Shown piece by piece: positions 50,861 through 64,000 of a DNA stretch of 64,000 nucleotides. This DNA comes from Fodinibius salipaludis (GTDB lineage Bacteria; Bacteroidota; Rhodothermia; Balneolales; Balneolaceae). The position numbers and the translations under genes are program-made. Location of the stretch: positions 186,001 through 250,000 of the forward strand of contig NZ_NSKE01000003.1 in NCBI RefSeq assembly GCF_002287075.1, written 5' to 3'. The notes under the pieces were generated by a model. The model saw only the letters and a list, made by a program, of their open reading frames with translations, did no database searches and had not been told where the DNA came from. How positions within the stretch are numbered: the stretch's first letter is position 1; the number at the start of each line of letters is the position of its first letter.

Positions 50861-52429
50861 ATGAACGCAAAAAGAAGTCAATTTAGAACCATCATTAGAG
50901 ATGTTGGAAGCATCCAATTACTCATTGGTCCCATATTACTGATTCCGGGTTTGGTTTCTATGTTATATGGTGAAACCTATTCGGCCTTCTCTTTTGGAAT
51001 CAGCTCGGTTATTACTACCCTTTTTGGAGGTATTGCCTATCAAATAAATAAAAAGGCAGAGAGCAACGGACAGAGTCAGGCGATGATGACGGCAGCAGCG
51101 GCCTGGATGGTGACTTCGTTCTTCGGAGCTCTTCCCTTTTTCATCGCTGCTCATATTACTCCGGTTGAGGTAGCTCAGTCATTTGTACCGGCCGGAGAAA
51201 CCTATTCTTCAAGCCTATACAATTTTAAGAGTTTCCTGCACGCTTTGTTTGAGAGTGTGAGTTCATATACCACCACCGGTTTGACGATGAGCGTTCATGA
51301 GCCGTCGGTTGGCTATGGACTACTGTTCTACCGCTCATTTGCGCAATGGCTTGGTGGGGCGGGTATGATTGTGTTGTCACTTGCTATCTTACGACACTCT
51401 AGCGGTATGCATGGGTTAGCCCTGTACAATGTTGAGGCCAGCGGACAAAAAATACGCCCCAATGTCAGGCAGACCACGCAAGCTATCTGGAAGGTCTATC
51501 TAACTGTCACATCCTTTTCTGCACTGTATATCTTTGTGGGCACCTGGATGGTATTTCCTGACTATAATCTTCTGCAAAACCTGTTTGAAGCGGTTAATCA
51601 TGCCATGACCGGTCAGTCAACAGGAGGGTTCAGTACTTTTGATGACAGTATTTCCGGCTATGGATCATACGCCATGGAGATGATTTACCTATTGCCAATG
51701 TTATTGGGGGCGATCTCTATCCCATTATATTACAAAATTTACGAGAAAGGGAGCTTAAAAGAACTATGGCTGGATTACCAGGGGCGTTGGCTTATTCTGC
51801 TGAATATTGTTGGTTCTACGGTGCTGATTATAATGTTAATGAGTTCATTTTCTTTTTCTCAATCATTCAGAGAGGGGATTTTCCAATTTATTAGTGCGTT
51901 GACGACCACCGGCTGGCAAACGGCTGATTTAAACACGTGGCCAGTTTATGCCACATTATTGATGGCTTCGATCCCAATGATTATTGGAGGATCAACTGGA
52001 GCTACGGTAGGAGGAATTAAGATTTTTCGTGCCTATTTTATGGCAAAAGGATTTACATGGAAATTAAAGAAGGTTATTCAGCCGTCCAGTAGTATTATTT
52101 CAGTAAAGTTAGGAACAGACCGCTACCCATACAAAGAAGTTTCTGACGATTTGATGGAAGCATATGTGTACTCCATGTTATATTTTGTCGTACTATTGGG
52201 GGGCATTATAATTAGTGCCATGTTTATGGGAGAAAACTTTCAATTGATTGATGCCATCTTTGAATCGGTCTCAGCACAGGGTACGGTAGGTTTATCCAGT
52301 GGACTCACAAGTCCTTCTATGCATCCCGTAACAGAGATAACCTATATCATTCAAATGTTGGTAGGACGTCTGGAGCTTATTCCGATACTCATTATGCTGC
52401 GCTCATTTTTCAAACACTCAAAGATTTAA
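50861..52429 (+). CDS. trkH: Potassium uptake protein TrkH/KtrB, channel subunit
   Basis: 522 aa with the fourfold M1-P-M2 layout of the Trk/Ktr superfamily. Four selectivity-filter loops are visible: SSYTTTGLTMS, MTGQSTGGFSTFD, SALTTTGWQTADLN and SAQGTVGLSSGLT, each with the conserved Gly. The N-terminal pair of extra helices (SIQLLIGPILLIPGLVSML, FSFGISSVITTLFGGIAY) fits TrkH rather than the shorter KtrB. It imports K+ through the inner membrane, gated by the TrkA encoded 24 bp downstream. It is preceded by a sigma-54 promoter and paired enhancer sites. Confidence 0.95.
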   Translation: MNAKRSQFRTIIRDVGSIQLLIGPILLIPGLVSMLYGETYSAFSFGISSVITTLFGGIAYQINKKAESNGQSQAMMTAAAAWMVTSFFGALPFFIAAHITPVEVAQSFVPAGETYSSSLYNFKSFLHALFESVSSYTTTGLTMSVHEPSVGYGLLFYRSFAQWLGGAGMIVLSLAILRHSSGMHGLALYNVEASGQKIRPNVRQTTQAIWKVYLTVTSFSALYIFVGTWMVFPDYNLLQNLFEAVNHAMTGQSTGGFSTFDDSISGYGSYAMEMIYLLPMLLGAISIPLYYKIYEKGSLKELWLDYQGRWLILLNIVGSTVLIIMLMSSFSFSQSFREGIFQFISALTTTGWQTADLNTWPVYATLLMASIPMIIGGSTGATVGGIKIFRAYFMAKGFTWKLKKVIQPSSSIISVKLGTDRYPYKEVSDDLMEAYVYSMLYFVVLLGGIIISAMFMGENFQLIDAIFESVSAQGTVGLSSGLTSPSMHPVTEITYIIQMLVGRLELIPILIMLRSFFKHSKI

Positions 52430-52453
52430 CTAAAACTTTTACAAACAAGAGTT

Positions 52454-53140
52454 ATGACTAAACAGAATAATATGATGTATCTTATCGTCGTGGGAGCTGG
52501 TCGCATAGGCAACCGTGTCATTGAACTGGCTACTCATGACGGACACGAAGTCGTGGTAATAGAGAAAAATACGGACTTGGCAGAAGTAACAAGCTCAAAG
52601 TATGATTGCCTGGTCATTAATGACGATGCCTCCAAAAACGATGTATTGGAAGATGCCGGTATTGAAGAAGCAGATGCCTTAATCACGACCACCAATGATG
52701 ATTCCACCAATCTCTTAGTGATGATGCTGGGACGGCGATATAACGTCCCCCGGTTGTTGAGTTCGGTCAGAGAGCCGGATCATATCAGTTTGTTTGATGA
52801 ATTGGATATCGATTCTGTTGAAAGTCCTCACCGATTGAATGGAGAATTCCTGTACAAAACGATTCAGCGTCCGGGTATTAAAGATTTTATGCGCCTGGAT
52901 GGAGGAGCTGAGATTGTCGAGGTTGTACTTGAGAAAGAATCTTCACTAATCGGGCTGACTATTATTGAAGCGCTTGAATCCGAGAAAGTTGCAGAGGATG
53001 TCATTATTGTAGCTATTTACAGGGAGGGTGAGCTTATCATTCCGCGAGGTAATACCAAGTTTGAAGCAGGAGATACTATAACAGTGTTGTCCAAAGAAGG
53101 AATAGGAGAAGATGTCATTCAGACATTTAAACCCCGGTAA
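52454..53140 (+). CDS. trkA: TrkA-type potassium uptake regulator (RCK protein)
   Basis: 228 aa: one TrkA_N Rossmann module with LIVVGAGRIGNRVIELATHD and the ITTTNDDSTNLL nucleotide-binding region, then one TrkA_C module (about 140-228, VVLEKESSLIGLTIIEALES and the PRGNTKFEAGDTITVLS strand). A single N+C pair is KtrA-like, half the E. coli TrkA. RCK proteins form cytosolic rings that gate the TrkH channel in response to nucleotides. It is 24 bp after trkH, in one operon. The ATG codons at 52472 and 52475 are also possible starts. Confidence 0.93.
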   Translation: MTKQNNMMYLIVVGAGRIGNRVIELATHDGHEVVVIEKNTDLAEVTSSKYDCLVINDDASKNDVLEDAGIEEADALITTTNDDSTNLLVMMLGRRYNVPRLLSSVREPDHISLFDELDIDSVESPHRLNGEFLYKTIQRPGIKDFMRLDGGAEIVEVVLEKESSLIGLTIIEALESEKVAEDVIIVAIYREGELIIPRGNTKFEAGDTITVLSKEGIGEDVIQTFKPR

Positions 53141-53670: not shown

Positions 53671-53771
53671 GAGCATTCCAGTGTTCAAAGATAATTCAGA
53701 GTTCTGACTAAAATTTGTAAGTATTTGTTAATAATAGACTTATAGAAATAAATAGGACTTAAAAAACACTT

Positions 53772-53786
53772 TGGCACGCTTATTTC
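53772..53786 (+). promoter_or_regulatory. Sigma-54 promoter of the kdp operon
   Basis: TGGCACGCTTATTTC matches TGGCACG-N4-TTGC at 10 of 11 fixed positions and has the same TTTC variant as the trkH promoter. The predicted start is about 53798, 33 nt before the first small gene of the operon. Confidence 0.8.
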
Positions 53787-53830: not shown

Positions 53831-53923
53831 ATGACACTTTTATTCTGGATTACACTCGTAACATTCGGTCTCGTCATTTTCTGGGGACTGTTCAAAAGCA
53901 TCGACTTTTTTGCCGACATATAA
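53831..53923 (+). CDS. 30-aa single-pass membrane microprotein, first gene of the kdp operon
   Basis: ATG at 53831 gives MTLLFWITLVTFGLVIFWGL and then FKSIDFFADI, with the stop at 53921-53923. Residues 2-20 form one hydrophobic helix; the tail is short with F/D residues. It lies between the sigma-54 promoter (33-nt leader) and kdpF (19 bp before its ATG), so it should be translated with the operon. It is not KdpF, which follows. I do not know a named family; a second small KdpABC-associated subunit or stabiliser is the natural guess but is unproven. Confidence 0.65.
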   Translation: MTLLFWITLVTFGLVIFWGLFKSIDFFADI

Positions 53924-53941
53924 CTCTAAAACAACACAATT

Positions 53942-54019
53942 ATGATGGTACTTCTCATTCTATCAGTCACAATGTTCGGGTACTTGTTTTATGTACTTCT
54001 GCACCCCGAAAAGTTCTAG
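53942..54019 (+). CDS. kdpF: K+-transporting ATPase small subunit KdpF
   Basis: 25 aa: MMVLLILSVTMFGYLFYVLL then HPEKF, stop TAG at 54017-54019. The pattern hydrophobic helix - GYL-YVLL-PE-F is the KdpF signature (compare Y-L-x-Y-A-L-L-x-P-E-x-F). It is a single-pass lipid-like subunit that stabilises KdpABC. It sits directly before kdpA, 39 bp from its ATG. Translation may begin at the second ATG (53945). Confidence 0.9.
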   Translation: MMVLLILSVTMFGYLFYVLLHPEKF

Positions 54020-54058: not shown

Positions 54059-55756
54059 ATGGATACGCAACTAATAGGTATTGGGTTTATCTACCTACTT
54101 ACAATCTTGCTGGCGATACCACTCGGTAAGTATATAGCCCGGGTATATCGCGGCGAGCATACCATGCTTGATCCGGCATTAAATCCGGTGGAAAAGCTGG
54201 TGTACAAAATATGCCGCATTACGCCTGGTCGCGAAATGAATTGGAAACAACATCTGGGAGCCCTGCTAACCATCAACATGATGTGGTTTGTATGGGGTAT
54301 GGTGTTGTTGGTGACTCAAAAAGGCTGGTTTTGGAATCCGGCTGAGATAGCCAACATGTCGCCGGACCTTGCTTTCAACACTGTGATCAGTTTTGTGGTG
54401 AACTGTAACCTGCAGCACTATTCCGGGGAGTCGAGCCTGACCTACTGGTCGCAACTTGGCTTCATTACGTTTATGCAGTTTGTAAGTGCCGGTACCGGGA
54501 TGGCCGCCTGTGCCGTAATTTTCCGTGCGATCAAGACCAAGCAAAGCGAAAAGCTGGGCAACTTCTACCGGCTGTTCGTGCGAAGCTGCGTCCATATCCT
54601 GCTGCCGCTTGCTATCGTGGTAGGTTCGCTGTTGGCATTAAACGGATCACCCGTTACCTGGGAAGGCTATGATACCATCACTACGCTCGAAGGCCATCAG
54701 CAAACCGTCGCTAAGGGGCCGGCTGCTGCCGAAATTGCCATAAAACAGCTGGGTACCAACGGAGGTGGATTTTTTGGAGCGAACTCTTCGGTTCCTTTTG
54801 AAAACCCGAATTACATTACCAATATCGCAGAAACTATGTCTCTTATACTTATTCCCATGGGCATGGTATTTGCCTTTGGCTACTACACAGAGAAGCGAAA
54901 ACTAGCCTGGATATTCTTTGCTGTAATGACGGTCGGCTACTTGGCTTTAACGACGCTTGCAGTCTATGGTGAGATGGAAGGGAACCCGGCCATTGCCCAA
55001 ATGGGAGTGTCACAGGAACTGGGCAGCATGGAAGGTACTGAGACGAGATTCGGTCCGGCTGCTTCAGCCTTGTGGGCTACCGCTACGACTTCTACTTCCA
55101 ACGGCTCGGTCAACTCTATGCACGACAGCCTGATGCCGCTTGGTGGCATGGCTACACTCACGGGAATGTTCATCAATGCTAATTACGGTGGCGTGGGGGT
55201 AGGCTTTATCAACTTCTACGTATTCGTGATCGTTGCCATCTTTATTGCCGGACTGATGGTGGGACGAACACCGGAGTTTTTGGGTAAGAAGGTAGAGGCC
55301 AAAGAGATGAAGATAGCCACTATTGTCGTCTTGCTGCATCCCGCTGTTATTCTGGTGGGTACGGCCATTTCGGCTTGGTTGATCACCCATAATCCCGATT
55401 GGGGCTGGCTGAACAATGCCGGTTTCCATGGCTTCTCCGAGATGTTGTATGAGTTCTCTTCGGCCACGGCCAATAACGGTTCCGGTTTCGAGGGACTCGG
55501 TGACAATACGCCCTGGTGGAATATCGCAACGGGTGTTGCGCTCTTGTTGGGCCGTTATGTGCCTATCATCGGACCCATTGCCATCGCGGGGTTACTGGCT
55601 AACAAACAATTTATCCCCGAAACGGCGGGAACACTGAAGGCAGACACCGCAACCTTCGGCGTCGTGCTTTTCGCAGTGATTGTAGTTATCGCAGCCCTGG
55701 CGTTTCTGCCGGCTCTGGTACTCGGCCCGATCGGTGAATATTTCATGCTCTATTAA
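54059..55756 (+). CDS. kdpA: K+-transporting ATPase subunit KdpA
   Basis: 565 aa, the K+-selective channel-like subunit of KdpFABC. Ten or so membrane segments with four filter loops: VNCNLQHYSGESSLTYWSQL, IKQLGTNGGGFFGANSSVPF, ATTSTSNGSVNSMHDSLMPL and SSATANNGSGFEGLGDNTPW. The third loop has Asn where E. coli has Cys. ITPGREMNWKQHLGALL near the start is also family-typical. It follows kdpF directly and is followed 21 bp later by kdpB. Confidence 0.98.
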   Translation: MDTQLIGIGFIYLLTILLAIPLGKYIARVYRGEHTMLDPALNPVEKLVYKICRITPGREMNWKQHLGALLTINMMWFVWGMVLLVTQKGWFWNPAEIANMSPDLAFNTVISFVVNCNLQHYSGESSLTYWSQLGFITFMQFVSAGTGMAACAVIFRAIKTKQSEKLGNFYRLFVRSCVHILLPLAIVVGSLLALNGSPVTWEGYDTITTLEGHQQTVAKGPAAAEIAIKQLGTNGGGFFGANSSVPFENPNYITNIAETMSLILIPMGMVFAFGYYTEKRKLAWIFFAVMTVGYLALTTLAVYGEMEGNPAIAQMGVSQELGSMEGTETRFGPAASALWATATTSTSNGSVNSMHDSLMPLGGMATLTGMFINANYGGVGVGFINFYVFVIVAIFIAGLMVGRTPEFLGKKVEAKEMKIATIVVLLHPAVILVGTAISAWLITHNPDWGWLNNAGFHGFSEMLYEFSSATANNGSGFEGLGDNTPWWNIATGVALLLGRYVPIIGPIAIAGLLANKQFIPETAGTLKADTATFGVVLFAVIVVIAALAFLPALVLGPIGEYFMLY

Positions 55757-55777: not shown

Positions 55778-57811
55778 ATGAAGAAGCAACGACCTAAATT
55801 ATTTGAACCTGCACTTGTAAAGACGGCCATAAAGGAGGCTTTTGTAAAACTAAAGCCTACTGTTATGGCCCGGAACCCGGTTATGTTTGCCGTGGAAGTG
55901 GGAGCGGCAATTATGCTGCTTGTGAGCCTGGCGGTTCTCTTTGGAATGGTTGACCAGGGAAGTTTTGGCTATAATATTGCCATATTCTTAATCCTGCTGT
56001 TTACCATTCTCTTCGCCAATTTTGCGGAAGCCCTGGCAGAAGCTCGTGGTAAAGCACAGGCCGACTCCCTGCGAAAAACCCGGAAAACAACCCCTGCCAA
56101 ACGGCTTAACGAAGATGGTACTACGGAAACCATCCAGTCATCCGAACTGAAAAAAGGTGATATTTTTGTCGCCGAAGAAGGAGACGTAATTCCGGCCGAT
56201 GGAGAGATCATCGAAGGATTGGCTTCGATTGACGAATCGGCCATTACGGGTGAATCTGCACCCGTGATCCGTGAATCCGGTGGGGATAAATCCGGTGTGA
56301 CGGGTGGTACGAAAGTACTATCCGACCGTATTAAGGTGGAAGTGACCTCCGATCCGGGCGAATCATTTCTGGACAAAATGATTGGACTTGTGGAAGGCGC
56401 CGAACGTCAAAAAACACCGAATGAGCTGGCGCTCGGTATTCTGCTTGCCGGCTTTACGCTGGTGTTTCTGATTGTCGTGGTTACGCTGCAGCCGTTTGCC
56501 ATGTATGCCAATACGGCTATAGCCATCGCATCGCTGATCGCTCTGTTTGTCTGCCTGATACCCACAACCATCGGTGGGCTGCTTTCGGCTATCGGTATTG
56601 CCGGTATGGACCGGGCGCTGCAGGCCAACATCATCAGTAAGTCGGGCCGGGCGGTAGAAACGGCCGGTGATATCGATACCCTGCTGCTTGATAAAACGGG
56701 TACGATTACTATCGGGAACCGTAAAGCAACCAACTTCTATCCGGTTAACAGCGTGGATGAGGATCACTTTATTCAGCAGTGTGTGGTCAGCTCGTTGGCT
56801 GATACTACACCGGAGGGAAAGTCCATTATTGAACTTGCCAAAGAGATGGACCAACCTATTCCGGAGCCGGACGAGGATGAGGTTGAATTTATCAAGTTTA
56901 CTGCTCAGACTCGAAGCAGCGGAATCAACCTGCCGGACGGTACGGAGATTCGCAAAGGTGCTGTAGATGCTATGAAGGATCTGGTGGAATCGGCCGGGAA
57001 TAATTTCCCGGATGCCCTGGAAGAGAAGGCGGAAGAAATATCGTCTGATGGGGGTACGCCGCTGATTGTAGCCGAAAATAAGGAGGCTATCGGGGTGATA
57101 CAGCTCGAGGATATCATCAAAAAAGGAATCGAAGAGCGGTTTGCCCGCTTGCGCAAGATGGGGGTCAAAACGGTGATGGTGACCGGCGATAACCCGCTGA
57201 CGGCCGAATATATTGCTAAAAAGGCTGGAGTGGACGACTTTATCGCCGAAGCGACGCCCGAAGACAAGCTCGAGTACATCAAAAAAGAACAGGCTGATGG
57301 GAAGCTTGTAGCCATGATGGGTGACGGTACCAATGACGCGCCCGCACTGGCGCAGGCCGATGTTGGCGTTGCGATGAACACCGGTACGCAGGCTGCCAAA
57401 GAAGCCGGTAATATGGTGGATCTGGATAACGATCCCACCAAGCTTATCGAGGTAGTGGAGATCGGCAAGCAGCTGCTGATCACCCGCGGTACGATGACCA
57501 CCTTCTCCATAGCCAACGACGTGGCGAAATATTTTGCCATCGTGCCGGCCCTGTTCATTCTGACATTCCCGCAACTACAGGCGCTGAATATTATGAATCT
57601 GGCCAGCCCGCAATCGGCCATACTGTCGGCGGTTATTTTCAACGCCGTTATCATCCCGCTGCTAATTCCGTTGGCACTGAGGGGCGTGGAATACAAACCG
57701 ATTGGCGCCTCAAAGCTGCTGGCCCGAAATCTCTTTATCTACGGGCTCGGCGGCATCATCGCGCCATTCGTGGGTATTAAACTGATTGACATTCTAATTA
57801 ATCTGGTATAA
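55778..57811 (+). CDS. kdpB: K+-transporting P-type ATPase subunit KdpB
   Basis: 677 aa, the catalytic subunit. Phosphorylated Asp is D305 in [13 protein letters not shown], the actuator motif is TGES at 157-160 (S160 corresponds to the inhibitory phosphoserine known in E. coli KdpB), the KGA nucleotide-binding motif is in RKGAVDAMK, and the hinge is [20 protein letters not shown]. The start [20 protein letters not shown] is typical. The operon position between kdpA and kdpC is conserved; a hairpin lies after its stop. Confidence 0.98.
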
Positions 57812-57818
57812 AACTGAA

Positions 57819-57847
57819 TCCTCCAAGGTTGTGGAACCCTTGGAGGA
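57819..57847 (+). terminator. Intercistronic hairpin kdpB-kdpC
   Basis: TCCTCCAAGG (57819-57828) and CCTTGGAGGA (57838-57847) form a perfect 10-bp stem with a 9-nt loop. No T-run follows, so it more likely adjusts mRNA stability or kdpC translation than ends transcription. It lies in the frame upstream of kdpC and argues for the internal kdpC start. Confidence 0.55.
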
Positions 57848-57875
57848 ATTAAATAATAATCTAATTTCTAAAATT

Positions 57876-58445
57876 ATGAAGAACGAACTTTTAAAGTCAT
57901 TTTTGCTAAGTGTTGTTTTATTGGGATTGTTTGCATTCGGTTACCCCTTTTTGATAAAAGGAGTAGCCATGCTGGGAACAAGCCATAACGGTGAAGGCGA
58001 AGTCATCAAAGTAAATGATCAGGTCGTTGGTTACGAACTAATCGGTCAGCGCTTTACATCCGACCGATATTTTAACAGCCGGCCCGGAGGGTATGATGCC
58101 GCCGGAACCGGTGGTTCAAACAAAGGGCCTATGGATCCGGATTACCTGGAAACAGTGCAGACGCGCATTGACTCCATTCTGGCACAAAATCCCGATATCA
58201 CCAAAGAGGATATCCCCACCGACATGGTGACGGCTTCCGGCAGTGATCTGGACCGGCACTTTTCTCCGCAGGCTGCCTACATGCAGATTCCGCGTATAAG
58301 CAAGGTGCGGGATATTTCCGAGGATCGCCTGCGCGAGCTTGTAAATAACCATGTAGAAGGACCTCTGCTTGGATTCCTTGGTCCGAATGAGCGCGTGCAC
58401 GTATTGAGACTCAATATTGCTCTGGATGAACTGGATAATCAATAA
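57876..58445 (+). CDS. kdpC: K+-transporting ATPase subunit KdpC
   Basis: 189 aa from the ATG at 57876 (MKNELLKSFLLSVVLLGLFA), which opens the N-terminal membrane helix expected for KdpC. The frame extends to 57831, but that part lies in the intercistronic hairpin. Family motifs: IGQRFTSDRYFNSRPGGYDA, GPMDPDYLETVQTRI, PTDMVTASGSDLDRHFSPQA and VNNHVEGPLLGFLGPNERVH with VLRLNIALDEL. KdpC is the single-span accessory subunit. A GC-rich hairpin follows. Confidence 0.97.
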   Translation: MKNELLKSFLLSVVLLGLFAFGYPFLIKGVAMLGTSHNGEGEVIKVNDQVVGYELIGQRFTSDRYFNSRPGGYDAAGTGGSNKGPMDPDYLETVQTRIDSILAQNPDITKEDIPTDMVTASGSDLDRHFSPQAAYMQIPRISKVRDISEDRLRELVNNHVEGPLLGFLGPNERVHVLRLNIALDELDNQ

Positions 58446-58494: not shown

Positions 58495-58543
58495 CATTTG
58501 GTGCCTAAACATGGAACTGTCTAAACACACAAGGAACTTTATT

Positions 58544-59278
58544 ATGAACATTTCAGGAACAAAGAACAAGGTTGTTTATTTATTTGCCACAATATGTTTT
58601 ACCGCTATAGGACTTTGCAGCTTACCCGCCGAAAACGCTAAAGCCCAGGACGTTGATTTCGGGGCCGATTTTGTAAACCGTTACGTCTGGCGCGGAATTG
58701 ACTTTGGTAAATCTGCCAGCATCCAGCCAACTATTGAATTTACCTCCGGTGGATTTACTGCGGGCACGTGGGCGTCGTATGCAATGAGTCCTGTAGAAAA
58801 CAGCACGGTTAGTGCGGTCGGCGCCTCCGAGCACGACTTGTATTTGAGTTACAGCTTTGGGAACGTATCTGTCGGGGTAACTGACTACTACTTTCCCACC
58901 GGATCTGAGATCTTCAATTTCGATGACGATGGAGCCGGAGCGCACTATATTGAGCCTAATATTAGCATTGCGGGGCCCGAATCGTTTCCCGTAACCTTCT
59001 ATGGTGCAATTAACGCCTACAATGATCCAGACCATTCCATCTATCTGGAAGCCAGCGTTCCATTTTCTGTGGGAGATACCGATATGGCGGTTACCATAGG
59101 AGGGGTACCGGCTGAGTCGAACTACTACGGCACGACCAAAGCGGGTCTTATAAATATGAATCTTTCGGTGTCGCGAGAGATCGAAATTACTGACAAATTC
59201 AGTTTGCCAATCTTTGGCGGCTACATCCTGAATCCCTACGCCGAACAGTCCTACCTGGTATTCGGGCTGAGCCTGTAA
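58544..59278 (+). CDS. TorF-family putative porin in the kdp locus
   Basis: 244 aa from the ATG at 58544 (MNISGTKNKVVYLFATICFT), which gives a clean signal peptide cut near AKAQ; the frame opens at 58511. The mature start VDFGADFVNRYVWRGIDFGK is the hallmark of this barrel family (Gcw_chp/TorF), and beta-hairpin strands follow (VSVGVTDYYFPTGSEIFNFD, GAINAYNDPDHSIYLEASVP) up to AEQSYLVFGLSL. It is probably an outer-membrane channel. Porins of this type commonly follow kdpC in Bacteroidota, which suggests a role in K+ passage; that is inference. Confidence 0.82.
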   Translation: MNISGTKNKVVYLFATICFTAIGLCSLPAENAKAQDVDFGADFVNRYVWRGIDFGKSASIQPTIEFTSGGFTAGTWASYAMSPVENSTVSAVGASEHDLYLSYSFGNVSVGVTDYYFPTGSEIFNFDDDGAGAHYIEPNISIAGPESFPVTFYGAINAYNDPDHSIYLEASVPFSVGDTDMAVTIGGVPAESNYYGTTKAGLINMNLSVSREIEITDKFSLPIFGGYILNPYAEQSYLVFGLSL

Positions 59279-59430: not shown

Positions 59431-60096
59431 ATGAATCTGATCATTATAGGTGCCGGACGTATAGGCCGTCGTATTATTGAACTTGCTACAAGTGATCATC
59501 ACGACGTGGTTGTTATTGAAGATGATGAACAAGCTGCCCGAGAGGCGGCAAAAGATTTTGAGTGCCGTGTTTTACATGAGAAGCCAACAAATGACGAGGT
59601 TCTAAAACAGGCTGCCATCGCAGAAGTCGATGTTTTGATCACCACAACAAATGATGACACCGTCAATCTGACAACGATATTAATTGGCCGCCAGTATGGT
59701 GTTCCACGATTGATCAGCTCGGTAAGCGACCCCGATCATATCGAATTGTTTCGCAACCTGACCGTTGATGTTATTGCTGATCCCCACCGTTTGCTGGGGG
59801 AATACTTGTATCGAAATGCCCTGGAACCGAGTATGAAAGGTATTATACAACTTCGTGGTGGGGCTGAACTTACAGAAATCAAACTGGATAAACATTCTTC
59901 CCTGGTTGGTAAAACGATTGTAGATGCCCTGGAAAGCGAAATAATCACCAATCACGAAATTATAGTGGCTATTTATAGGAAAGGGGGGGTGATTATACCC
60001 CGTGGTGATACGCAATTTGAAATCGGTGACGGTGTAACTATCTTATCAAAAAAGGGAATCAGCAATGGTATCTTCAGGACAGTCCAAAGACAATAA
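59431..60096 (+). CDS. Second TrkA-like RCK regulator
   Basis: 221 aa, about half identical to the TrkA at 52454. It has the same NAD-binding start LIIIGAGRIGRRIIELATSD, ITTTNDDTVNLTTILIGRQY, RLISSVSDPDHIELF and the TrkA_C module with IPRGDTQFEIGDGVTILSKK. There is no second trkH in the window, so it may modulate the same TrkH, another channel, or Kdp. It is followed by the universal-stress protein with overlapping or adjacent starts. I found no good sigma-54 promoter directly before it. Confidence 0.88.
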   Translation: MNLIIIGAGRIGRRIIELATSDHHDVVVIEDDEQAAREAAKDFECRVLHEKPTNDEVLKQAAIAEVDVLITTTNDDTVNLTTILIGRQYGVPRLISSVSDPDHIELFRNLTVDVIADPHRLLGEYLYRNALEPSMKGIIQLRGGAELTEIKLDKHSSLVGKTIVDALESEIITNHEIIVAIYRKGGVIIPRGDTQFEIGDGVTILSKKGISNGIFRTVQRQ

Positions 60097-61075
60097 TGTG
60101 TTTGACATTCAAACGCTTAATGAAAATAACCTAAAGGCAAAATTAGCATCTTCAGAGGAACAAAAGAAAACTGATTCCACCGGGTATACCATTCTAATTC
60201 CCATTAGTAATCCGGATTCTTTCAAAGCATTGCTCCCGCCAGCCATTAAGGCGTGCTACAGGCATAGTGGGAGATTATTACTGTTGCATGTCCTCTCCGT
60301 TTCGCATGTCACAAATGGAGTTGAAGAAGCCAAATTGGATACTGCTAAATCACTGTTGCTGGAGGGATTGCAACGGGTTCGTGCAGCCGGGCTGGAAGCG
60401 GAATTATTGATACGAATTTCGAGCAACATTCCCGATGCCATAATTCATACTGCCCAAGAGCAATATACTTCCCTTTTGGTAATGGGATGGGGCGTTCCCG
60501 ATGACGATGAGCAAAATCTAATTGATGCGGCTGCTGTGGATCGAATCTGTAGGAATGTTGAGGGAAATATTCTGATTGGTGAGCCTCACATACAATCAAC
60601 GTTCAGAAAAGTAGTGGTGATGGTGGATGAACTCTCTTTGGTTGAGCCGGTACTGGAACATGCCTCTTTCCTATTGCATGGAAGACAGGAAGGAGTTGTG
60701 TTATTTCACTCATTTAAGGGAGGTCCCTGGGAAACTGGCATTAACGAATATATCCATTCTTTAAACAAAGAACTGCGAACATTTAAGCATAAGAATCCCG
60801 GATTTGAGGGAGAAATATTGCTCCGTCATATTTTAGAAACGGAGCTCGAGGACGGGGCGCTGAGCAACATACTTAAAGAACACGCGCAAGATGCCGATTG
60901 CATCCTGTTGGGAACCCGCGAGGAACACTGGGTCAAAAAAGCGTTACTGGTGGAGCGCCCCAATGTAATTACGGAGGCCGTGTCGAAACCCATATTTTTA
61001 TCCCGTCCGCAAAATGCACAGCCTTCTACGTGGGTAGATATAATTTTCAATTATTTTAGAACACACTGGCTATAG
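60065..61075 (+). CDS. Tandem universal stress protein domain protein
   Basis: 336 aa. Two UspA-like modules: about 41-180 (YTILIPISNPDSFKALLPPA, LLVMGWGVPDDDE, GNILIGEPH) and about 183-315 (KVVVMVDELSLVEPVLEHAS, DADCILLGTREEHWVKKALL, KPIFLSRPQ). This layout is like the soluble C-terminal parts of some cation transporters. The ATG at 60065 overlaps the upstream TrkA stop by 32 bp; the GTG at 60098 in the same frame would begin right after it and still keep both domains. In the K+ island it may sense nucleotides such as c-di-AMP or ATP, which is inference. Confidence 0.75.
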   Translation: MVSSGQSKDNNVFDIQTLNENNLKAKLASSEEQKKTDSTGYTILIPISNPDSFKALLPPAIKACYRHSGRLLLLHVLSVSHVTNGVEEAKLDTAKSLLLEGLQRVRAAGLEAELLIRISSNIPDAIIHTAQEQYTSLLVMGWGVPDDDEQNLIDAAAVDRICRNVEGNILIGEPHIQSTFRKVVVMVDELSLVEPVLEHASFLLHGRQEGVVLFHSFKGGPWETGINEYIHSLNKELRTFKHKNPGFEGEILLRHILETELEDGALSNILKEHAQDADCILLGTREEHWVKKALLVERPNVITEAVSKPIFLSRPQNAQPSTWVDIIFNYFRTHWL

Positions 61076-61271: not shown

Positions 61272-61285
61272 AAGCTTAAAAAGTG

Positions 61286-62443
61286 ATGAGTAAAACTGAA
61301 TCAGAACGTAAAGAAGCAGCGGTTAATCGGTTCCTGGGTCTCATCAGGAAATCGAGACGTGGCAAATTCAAGCTGTACATCGGCATGGCCGCCGGTGTGG
61401 GGAAAACGTATCGCATGCTGGAAGAGGCCCATCAACTCTTAGAAAAAGATGTAGATGTCAAAATCGGTATCATTGAGACCCACGGGCGCAAGGAAACGGC
61501 GGAACTGACTGAGGGAATTCCCCGAATTCCCATGAAGGAGGTGTTTTATAAAGGAAAAGAGCTTAAAGAAATGGATGTAGAGGCCATCAAACAAAACAAA
61601 CCGGAGGTGATTCTGGTCGATGAACTGGCACATACCAACATCCCGGGCTCGAAAAACGAAAAGCGCTGGCAGGATGTGGTGGAGCTTTTGAATGCCGGCA
61701 TCAATGTAATTAGCACGGTGAATATCCAGCACCTGGAATCGTTAAATAACGATGTAGAGCAAATTACCGATGTAAATGTCAAAGAACGAGTACCGGATAC
61801 CGTGCTGCAGATGGCCGATGAGCTTGTCAATGTAGATCTGACGGTCGATGAACTTTTGCAACGGCTTGAAGATGGCAAGATTTATGATCCGTCTAAAATT
61901 AGTACGGCACTGGAAAACTTTTTTAAAAAAGAAAATCTGCTGCAACTGAGGGAGCTGGCCCTGCGAGAGGCGGCCGGACAGTTGGGAAGAAAAATTGATG
62001 CTGAGGTTTATAAAAAAGATGCTATTACCGGCAACCGAATCATGGTCTGTATCAGTACAAATCCAGAAGGCGGTAAACATCTGATACGGCGCGCGGCGCG
62101 TATGGCCTCGTCAATGCGATCAGAGTGGACGGTAATGTACGTACAGTCGAAGGAAGAAAGCAGTGATCGCGTTGATCTGGCGGACCAGCGGCATCTTATC
62201 AATAATTTTAAATTGGCCACCGAGCTGGGTGCTGAGGTGGAAAAGATAGAGGCTGAAAATATTGCTGAAAGTATCGTTGAATATGCGAAGGAGCATGATG
62301 TTCGGTGGATCATGATGGGAGCGCCTAAACGGACGATATGGAATAAATTGGGGCTTCGAACGCTTACTGAAAAAGTGCTCCACCTGGTAGAAAACTTAAA
62401 CATTGATTTAATCGTGGTATCACACAATGGGCATGAACATTAA
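61286..62443 (+). CDS. kdpD: KdpD sensor protein, short form without kinase core
   Basis: 385 aa from the ATG at 61286 (a GTG precedes it directly). The N-terminal KdpD domain is complete: RGKFKLYIGMAAGVGKTYRM (Walker A) followed by LEEAH, DVKIGIIETHGRKETAELTE, EVILVDELAHTNIPGSKNEK (Walker B) and INVISTVNIQHLESLND. A universal-stress module follows (about 250-385: NRIMVCISTNPEGGKHLIRR to NLNIDLIVVSHNG). The four membrane helices, GAF and histidine kinase of E. coli KdpD are absent and instead a separate kinase gene overlaps its end. It senses the K+ demand signal in the cytoplasm. Confidence 0.93.
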   Translation: MSKTESERKEAAVNRFLGLIRKSRRGKFKLYIGMAAGVGKTYRMLEEAHQLLEKDVDVKIGIIETHGRKETAELTEGIPRIPMKEVFYKGKELKEMDVEAIKQNKPEVILVDELAHTNIPGSKNEKRWQDVVELLNAGINVISTVNIQHLESLNNDVEQITDVNVKERVPDTVLQMADELVNVDLTVDELLQRLEDGKIYDPSKISTALENFFKKENLLQLRELALREAAGQLGRKIDAEVYKKDAITGNRIMVCISTNPEGGKHLIRRAARMASSMRSEWTVMYVQSKEESSDRVDLADQRHLINNFKLATELGAEVEKIEAENIAESIVEYAKEHDVRWIMMGAPKRTIWNKLGLRTLTEKVLHLVENLNIDLIVVSHNGHEH

Positions 62444-64000
62444 AACCAAACTGTACACAGGACTTGGGTTTTTGGCATTTCTGCTGGTCTTACTTTGGGG
62501 CAGTAGCTTGGTATCTGTCAATACACTCGCTGAAAATACCGTTGACATCATTCAGAACAACAGTCGTACAATTACCTACATGCAAAATATGGAGCATGCG
62601 ATGAGTAAGCTCCATAAGAAAGAGGTCAATATGTTGTCTGATACAGCCCGTCCTGCATCAACGAATGTAGATTCGCTAAAACGAATTTTAAAGCGGGAGA
62701 TGTCAAAACAAATGAAAAATTTTACGGAAACTGGTGAACCTGAGGCAAGCAGGGCGCTACGAGGGGCTCTTATGCAATACCTGGAACAGTTTGATCGGTT
62801 TCGTTCTCAAGAATATCGAGACATGAACTCTTATCAGACTATCGTAAATAAATACGCAGAGATCCAAGACCTGATTTCTCAGATCACGTATATGAATCTC
62901 GATGCCATTGACCGTAAAAAGGATCGAGCTCAAGAAACCGCGGCACAAGTTATTTTGTATATGACGATTATTGGTGCAATAAGTACGTTATTGGCACTGG
63001 CGCTACTCTTGAAATATCCCAATTATATTGTTAATCCAATCCGAGAGCTTATAGAGCGTATACAGAATATTGCGAACCAAAATTATGACCAGCGTCTGGA
63101 ATTTAACACCGGCGATGAATATGAAGAGTTGGCCCAGGCGTTTAATACGATGGCCACCCGCTTGCAGGAATATGAAAGCAGCAATCTTGCCAAATTGAAG
63201 AATGAGAAGCAGCGCATTGAGGCCATTATCAACCAGATGAATGAGGCGATCGTCGGGCTGGACAGTGAAAAGAATATCCTTTTTGTAAATTCAAAAGCGG
63301 AAGAACTTCTTGGGCTGGATCGCAACAAACTGGTAGGGCAGTATGCGCCTGATGTAGCATCTACCAATGATTTGATGCGTAAACTGATTAAAGGCTTGAT
63401 GGATACGGAGAAAACGAATCAAGATGAGGAAGGCGATCTAATTAAAATTGCCTCTGAAAATCGCCATATTTACTATTCCAAAGATACCCTGCCTGTCCTT
63501 TTAGATGATGAGGCGCAGCAGGATGGTAAACAGATCGGGACTATCGTTACGCTCAAAAACGTAACCCATTTCCAGGAAATGAATGAGGCGAAGTCAAATT
63601 TTGTGGCTGTGGTTTCTCATGAGTTAAAAACCCCCATTGCCTCCATAAATATGAGTCTGCGATTGTTGGAGGATGAACGTGTGGGACCTTTGAATGAAGA
63701 GCAGGTTGAGCTTATTGATAGTATTCGCAATGATGCCGACCGCATGAAACGTACCACAGCTGAACTGCTGGATCTTTCAAAAATCGAAAGCGGGAATATT
63801 CAGTTAAATAGCCAGCCAGCTCGTCCTTCCGACCTGCTTGATTATGCATTCGAAACCATGGTAATGCAGGTCGACCAAAAGGGAATCGACATAGAAATTG
63901 AATGTGAGGAAGAGCTGCCTGCCGTTAAAACCGATCTACAGAAATCGGTATGGGTACTTGTAAATTTAATATCGAATGCTGTGCGATATACCCCGGACCA
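62427..64000 (+). CDS. HAMP-PAS sensor histidine kinase, partner of KdpD (3' end cut by window)
   Basis: Open frame from the ATG at 62427 (or 62433), overlapping the kdpD stop by 17 or 11 bp, to the window end: about 524 residues. Order: TM1 in KLYTGLGFLAFLLVLLWGSS (about 8-28), a helical extracytoplasmic region to about 170, TM2 VILYMTIIGAISTLLALALL (about 174-193), HAMP (IVNPIRELIERIQNIANQNY on), coiled coil, PAS (AIINQMNEAIVGLDSEKNIL to about 365), HisKA with H398 in FVAVVSHELKTPIASINMSL, then the HATPase N-box LVNLISNAVRYTPD at the very end. The overlap with kdpD implies coupled translation and a joint signalling complex. Its response regulator should lie beyond the window. Confidence 0.92.
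   Translation, partial: MGMNIKTKLYTGLGFLAFLLVLLWGSSLVSVNTLAENTVDIIQNNSRTITYMQNMEHAMSKLHKKEVNMLSDTARPASTNVDSLKRILKREMSKQMKNFTETGEPEASRALRGALMQYLEQFDRFRSQEYRDMNSYQTIVNKYAEIQDLISQITYMNLDAIDRKKDRAQETAAQVILYMTIIGAISTLLALALLLKYPNYIVNPIRELIERIQNIANQNYDQRLEFNTGDEYEELAQAFNTMATRLQEYESSNLAKLKNEKQRIEAIINQMNEAIVGLDSEKNILFVNSKAEELLGLDRNKLVGQYAPDVASTNDLMRKLIKGLMDTEKTNQDEEGDLIKIASENRHIYYSKDTLPVLLDDEAQQDGKQIGTIVTLKNVTHFQEMNEAKSNFVAVVSHELKTPIASINMSLRLLEDERVGPLNEEQVELIDSIRNDADRMKRTTAELLDLSKIESGNIQLNSQPARPSDLLDYAFETMVMQVDQKGIDIEIECEEELPAVKTDLQKSVWVLVNLISNAVRYTPD

Follow-up and report, generated by a model that had tools for sequence, protein, structure and literature searches.

The window, the whole stretch of 64,000 nt analysed here, contains on its forward strand a kdp operon whose first frame is a microprotein gene (positions 53831–53923; ATG, 30 codons and TAA) reading MTLLFWITLVTFGLVIFWGLFKSIDFFADI, with a gap of 18 nt between its TAA and kdpF. 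This is the hydrophobic 30-codon frame that the preliminary description had reported ahead of kdpF, and it is present, in the operon, as claimed. It is followed on the same strand by kdpF (53942–54019; 25 aa; TIGR02115, E 4.3e-9, above cut-off; PF09604, E 1.3e-7), kdpA (54059–55756; PF03814, E 3.6e-225), kdpB (55778–57811; E1-E2 ATPase and HAD hydrolase domains) and kdpC (57831–58445; GTG start as listed; PF02669, E 6.6e-57). Further downstream are the gene for a short KdpD of 386 aa with a KdpD domain and a Usp domain (61283–62443, forward strand; PF02702, PF00582) and, from position 62427, a histidine-kinase-like frame named from its sequence.

The maximum 19-residue hydropathy of the microprotein is 2.29 and its AlphaFold2 model is a single helix spanning residues 3–29, with a mean pLDDT of 95.3; the product is hence predicted to be one membrane helix. 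Scans against Pfam (E ≤ 1) and NCBIfam (E ≤ 10) gave no match for the microprotein of the window, and those with 26 homologues returned only matches of single members (best E of 0.0036 in Pfam and 0.061 in NCBIfam), which we take as chance. A profile comparison with solved structures found nothing convincing, the best hit being ExbB with an E of 0.47.

Genes for TrkH, two TrkA-like proteins and a Usp protein lie on both sides of the kdp operon (50861–53140 and 59431–61075), forming a potassium island, and the short KdpD followed by the separate histidine-kinase-like frame (61283–63998 for the pair) and, beyond the window, by an NtrC-type activator forms a split sensor arrangement. The protein encoded after kdpC (58511–59278) has a sub-threshold match to the TorF family putative porin (20.5 bits; cut-off 47.15), and a TorF porin is annotated directly ahead of kdpF in Sphingomonas (L245); the TorF-like protein is a possible candidate for an outer-membrane partner of the pump.

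Upstream of the microprotein gene there is a sigma-54-type −24 element, TTTGGCACG (53770–53778, forward strand), which is kept in G006, a genome of the same genus. The sequence TTGGCA occurs in 47 of 99 regions upstream of homologues (117 minus near-copies), where 6.8 would be expected and the reverse strand gives 3. A single Chryseobacterium-like cluster provides 18 of the 49 rows listed in this analysis, so that the count overstates independent events. Of the sigma-54 promoter proposed in the preliminary description, this good, enriched and retained −24 box stands, whereas the −12 half (about 53783–53786) reads TTTC, departing from TTGC, and the two-part match, TGGCAC with a correctly spaced TTGC, shows no enrichment among 202 upstream regions (9, against 43 in 1010 simulated controls) and no clear enrichment in the set of 99 (4, against 1.1 expected). 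The −7 element of Bacteroidota, TA..TTTG, was found in none of the 99 regions, against 12.7 expected. A gene for an NtrC-type sigma-54 activator is situated at about window position 64717, ca. 0.7 kb past the window end, and what we take to be similar-looking NtrC-type activator genes precede the operon in L020 and L036. It is plausible that the operon begins upstream of the microprotein gene, under sigma-54 control.

Conservation and codon constraint of the microprotein frame

KdpA is rare among the relatives of the window: of 116 genomes just two have it, that of the window itself and G006. A search of 58 genomes identified the microprotein frame at the same place in G006, with 90% identity (E 2.2e-13); eight other matches from this search (E 0.016–0.83) look like chance. 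The two DNA sequences differ in 9 of 90 bases, distributed as 1, 1 and 7 over codon positions 1, 2 and 3, and the changes comprise 6 synonymous and 3 non-synonymous ones (Nei-Gojobori; Fisher p 0.0024). The preliminary description had made its case dependent on conservation of the frame in close relatives, and in this comparison G006 keeps the frame, with mostly synonymous changes. A longer form starting at a TTG (53771, 50 aa) was considered and rejected, because the open frame of G006 has only 31 codons and the homologues align over the 30-aa form.

From 270 confirmed KdpA relatives we took the best 80 as loci, and 79 of these best 80 of 270 score at least 20 bits with a profile built from 26 homologues, of which 24 came from those same 80 loci; the exception is L036, and L020 reaches exactly 20.0 bits. 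The homologous frames are mostly 26–31 residues long and most members, with exceptions, carry the C-terminal motif F-x-L-[FY]-[YF]-K-[SA]-[IV]-[DE]-[FWY]-F-[ED]-[KRQNH]-I. In three sets of hand-chosen loci (19, 19 and 13), the in-frame pN/pS was 0.34, 0.22 and 0.18, compared with 0.93 to 4.44 in the shifted frames, and kdpF gave 0.29, 0.07 and 0.14 in the same sets. The microprotein is under purifying selection at the protein level.

The frame and its presence ahead of kdpF might in principle be due to a conserved leader region that happens to be open over this length, as its shortness and the eight chance-like matches mentioned above would allow. This is refuted by the codon-position pattern and by the linkage to kdpA described below, and also by the frequency of such frames: an ATG frame of 24–45 codons with a membrane stretch occurs at most 200 nt before kdpF in 76 of 103 loci of the phylum, against 2.0 expected from dinucleotide shuffles. 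We consider chance a practically untenable explanation, and the frame at 53831–53923 is a real gene.

Linkage to kdpA and relation to KdpF

The profile identified 46 matches in 46 of 394 genomes from the phylum (E ≤ 3.2e-4), two of them, the window and G006, being seeds of the profile. All 46 copies are on the same strand as kdpA, 114–918 nt upstream of where the KdpA profile match begins. KdpA itself was matched in 111 of the 394 genomes (110 over cut-off), and no strong microprotein match appeared in the 283 kdpA-less genomes; weaker profile matches (E 0.0015 to 0.1) are located elsewhere, judging their coordinates by eye. Among these 394 genomes the microprotein is accordingly encoded only with kdpFABC (46/46 matches), and 65 of the 111 kdpA genomes have no confident match to the type found in the window. 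Every carrier also has a KdpD of the short form, with an open frame of 374–430 aa, so linkage to KdpD cannot separate a subunit of the pump from a regulator acting with the sensor.

KdpF and the microprotein are alike in being products of 25–30 residues with one membrane helix, both encoded immediately upstream of kdpA and easily missed; the gene table of Parabacteroides L235, which is incomplete by design, includes neither. The microprotein thus shares with KdpF the trait of a single-helix frame next to kdpA. They differ, however, in that they show no sequence match, have different conserved C-terminal ends and co-exist. The KdpF models PF09604 and TIGR02115 matched none of the 26 homologues at E ≤ 1, and while all of 21 KdpFs of the Bacteroidota type end in PEKF or PERF, the microprotein ends in FFADI, FFEKI or similar and lacks this P-E-[KR]-F terminus. 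Moreover, kdpF is present in all 46 loci of the phylum carrying the window's type, so the microprotein is not a replacement for KdpF. That it is distinct from KdpF, as the preliminary description had held, is borne out by the lack of a match to either model together with its own homologues, linkage and codon constraint.

If the gene were a tandem copy of kdpF that has diverged, with a KdpF-like function, this would account for the size, the single helix, the adjacent position and the short, charged C-terminus with its hydrophobic last residue, and a KdpF profile from other phyla places 15 of the 26 homologues above the 95th percentile obtained with shuffled sequences. We nevertheless regard such an origin as very doubtful, given that the Pfam and NCBIfam KdpF models give no match, that profile-profile comparison (hhalign) produces either nothing that can be used as an alignment (probability 13.9 over 1 column) or a weak alignment (11.3), that the P-E-[KR]-F end is missing, and that the microprotein is always accompanied by kdpF in the phylum sample.

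The kdpF-proximal slot in other lineages and the KdpA tree

Among 109 kdpA loci of the phylum with at least 300 nt upstream, not counting the window and G006, we found the window's type in 44, a second type in 26, a third type in 7 and none over threshold in 32, the profiles for the second and third types being seeded partly from these same loci. The second type (MNVYHxLYxGILIFLxLAG...) occupies the same slot before kdpF in 26 loci between L192 and L233, belonging to family f26 and genera g69 and g74, and its pN/pS was 0.32 in 12 loci, against 1.19 and 1.55 in the shifted frames. The third type is a 27-aa product with the pattern M-x-D-[LI]...[RK]-x-[CA]-[DE]-[RK]-L. At least 5 of the 32 loci below threshold (L181, L183, L186, L194 and L208) have another short membrane frame, as judged by eye.

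We also inspected 26 hand-picked named records, E. coli K-12 and 25 from a plasmid collection, with the window's type appearing in only one of them (Parabacteroides, L235). Fifteen of the 26, from 11 Alphaproteobacteria, 2 Deinococcus and 2 Actinomycetota, have a one-helix frame of 26–30 residues next to kdpF that we took for the third type, a call that in some records depends on choosing a GTG or an internal ATG as start. In Deinococcus sp. KNUC1210 (L236) this frame is situated between kdpF and kdpA and was left out of the alignment, and in D. radiodurans the slot protein, likewise of a sequence type other than that of the window, lies between kdpB and kdpF-kdpA. No such frame was seen in the remaining 10 of the 26 records: E. 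coli (L154), Klebsiella, Acinetobacter, Ideonella, S. aureus, Listeria, Enterococcus, L. plantarum, Picosynechococcus and Halobacterium, the absence being weak in Acinetobacter, L. plantarum and Picosynechococcus, where no kdpF was seen either. A tblastn search with the Rhizobium form matched 180 plasmid records, counted as sequence matches irrespective of kdpA proximity in each record; among the matches listed, 3 of 40 fall under an annotated gene, which in L258 is on the opposite strand.

The second and third types resemble the window's type in being short one-helix frames near kdpF and in their size range, but they are tied to other KdpA clades. In cross-scoring, the third-type profile placed 18 of 26 members of the window's type, and the profile of the window's type 6 of 19 third-type members, above the shuffled 95th percentile, with 15 of 26 and 3 of 18 for KdpF controls; we do not propose that the types form one family. 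Elsewhere among Kdp lineages, different one-helix microproteins seem to occupy this position, and E. coli appears to do without.

Several loci contain, ahead of the microprotein gene, an extra short frame with one membrane stretch and a mostly basic N-terminus (e.g. MTISRKTFKKREHSTFSLLIVSYVLFTLLTLIIKI). It was seen in L053, L062, L088 and other Chryseobacterium loci (ca. 275–167 nt before kdpA), as well as in L015, L017, L027, L048, L068 and L024 (1398–1541). Over the 78 nt upstream, the Chryseobacterium set varies with the codon pattern of another frame, and the extra frame is preceded by a −24 box. Proteins of the DUF7674 family (PF24722) are encoded between the microprotein gene and kdpF in L024 (1644–2003 and 2304–2684) and L020 (2504–2848).

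A quick KdpA tree was built with 144 rows, comprising 28 hand-picked from the best 80 loci, the phylum loci and some of the named records. All 73 rows labelled with the window's type fall in one clade of 83 rows with a support of 100. The tree requires eight label changes, indicating that losses, gains or missed copies occurred. Ten of the 83 rows in this clade have no match to the microprotein, and in five of them (L036, L176, L185, L191 and L232) we saw no substitute frame; loci of the same clade without any such frame indicate that the microprotein can be lost. The window and G006 are sisters nested inside the Bacteroidota clade of the tree, and this position, together with the rarity of kdpA in the window's family, suggests that the whole operon, including the microprotein gene, was acquired from Bacteroidota.

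Possible function and comparison with known systems

Among ion pumps KdpFABC is a textbook case whose structures have been solved. The preliminary description had suggested a second small subunit of KdpFABC or a regulator of its assembly, and such a role would fit the strict linkage to kdpA. The reading that we favour, with a probability of about 0.6, is that the microprotein is a second single-helix accessory subunit of this pump, beside KdpF: its constant association with kdpA, the presence of kdpF in the same loci and the selective constraint on both helix and C-terminal end all suggest a partner of the pump complex proper. The microprotein would be made under potassium limitation and insert as a single helix whose K/D-bearing C-terminus faces the cytosol, and it may pack on KdpA/KdpB at a site other than that of KdpF; this packing would stabilise or tune the complex, with the conserved C-terminal motif as the putative contact surface. 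On the other side, 65 of the 111 kdpA genomes and 10 of the 83 rows of its own KdpA clade lack a match, and KdpFABC of E. coli works without the microprotein (none was seen in L154). The presence of KdpD in all 46 carriers could also fit a role with the regulator.

As a regulator of the pump and not a part of it, the microprotein could be a transferable single helix that inhibits or activates KdpB, much as phospholamban acts on SERCA, or an adaptor bringing the short soluble KdpD serine kinase to the pump. P-type ATPases with small single-helix subunits do exist, phospholamban and sarcolipin being examples according to the available part of PMC10654040, and all 46 carriers have the short KdpD (open frame of 374–430 aa), the KdpD domain being described as a serine kinase acting on KdpB in the accessible portion of PMC11018627. 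However, the short KdpD is also present in genomes of the same clade without a microprotein match (G309, G356 and G133, corresponding to L176, L185 and L191), and rhizobial and other operons, taken whatever their form of KdpD, carry a slot microprotein too. We therefore judge this explanation rather unlikely.

The frame might instead be a leader peptide whose translation, and not its product, controls the translation or transcription of kdpF and the later genes. The operon opens with it, a gap of 18 nt separates it from kdpF, and in other loci the two are close or overlap; in Caulobacter the ca. 100 nt before kdpF are treated as a structured 5′ UTR in the available text of PMC8552747. In Phenylobacterium (L256), a relative of Caulobacter, the corresponding region contains a third-type frame. 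A leader is at odds with the constraint at the amino acid level (pN/pS 0.18–0.34) and with conservation of the motif across families; additionally, L024 and similar loci have ca. 1 kb and two DUF7674 genes between the microprotein gene and kdpF, and the Deinococcus slot protein, of another type, is encoded after kdpB in D. radiodurans or after kdpF in KNUC1210. This makes a leader improbable, and we rank the accessory subunit first, followed by the transferable regulator, the leader peptide and the kdpF duplicate.

The frame is absent from Pfam and NCBIfam, and the KdpFABC gene set would thus be incomplete in many bacteria. Should the microprotein be a subunit, a pump produced from the cloned kdpFABC genes of such bacteria would miss a part; should it be a regulator, it would offer a simple bacterial model for microprotein control of a P-type ATPase. 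As a tentative generalisation, for which the odds are somewhat below even, the Kdp pump of Bacteroidota, Alphaproteobacteria, Actinomycetota and Deinococcota may consist of five subunits, two of them single-helix microproteins, and the four-subunit complex of E. coli may be a reduced one.

Among described systems, KdpZ and KdpY are small hydrophobic proteins. The nearest precedent is the kdpZYABCXDE transcript of Clostridium acetobutylicum, as presented in the part of PMC5401905 available. Like the microprotein gene, kdpZ and kdpY are there ahead of kdpA in one transcript, a likeness by gene order alone. The novelty claimed in the preliminary description holds for Pfam, NCBIfam and the literature searched, in which the microprotein is not described, but must be qualified by these genes already reported ahead of kdpA (PMC5401905, in the same part). 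The available parts of PMC9650054, PMC11364881, PMC12316311 and PMC7535926 contain nothing on such a protein. Elsewhere, in the sections of each source at hand, the pump subunits are given as KdpA, B, C and F (PMC10654040), the operon of D. radiodurans is named kdpBACD-N (PMC5716572), and the short KdpD/Usp form is assigned mainly to Bacteroidota and three other phyla (PMC11018627). Phospholamban and sarcolipin, from the animal P2A ATPases covered in that portion of PMC10654040, are likewise small single-helix partners of a P-type ATPase, a comparison that we draw as an analogy only.
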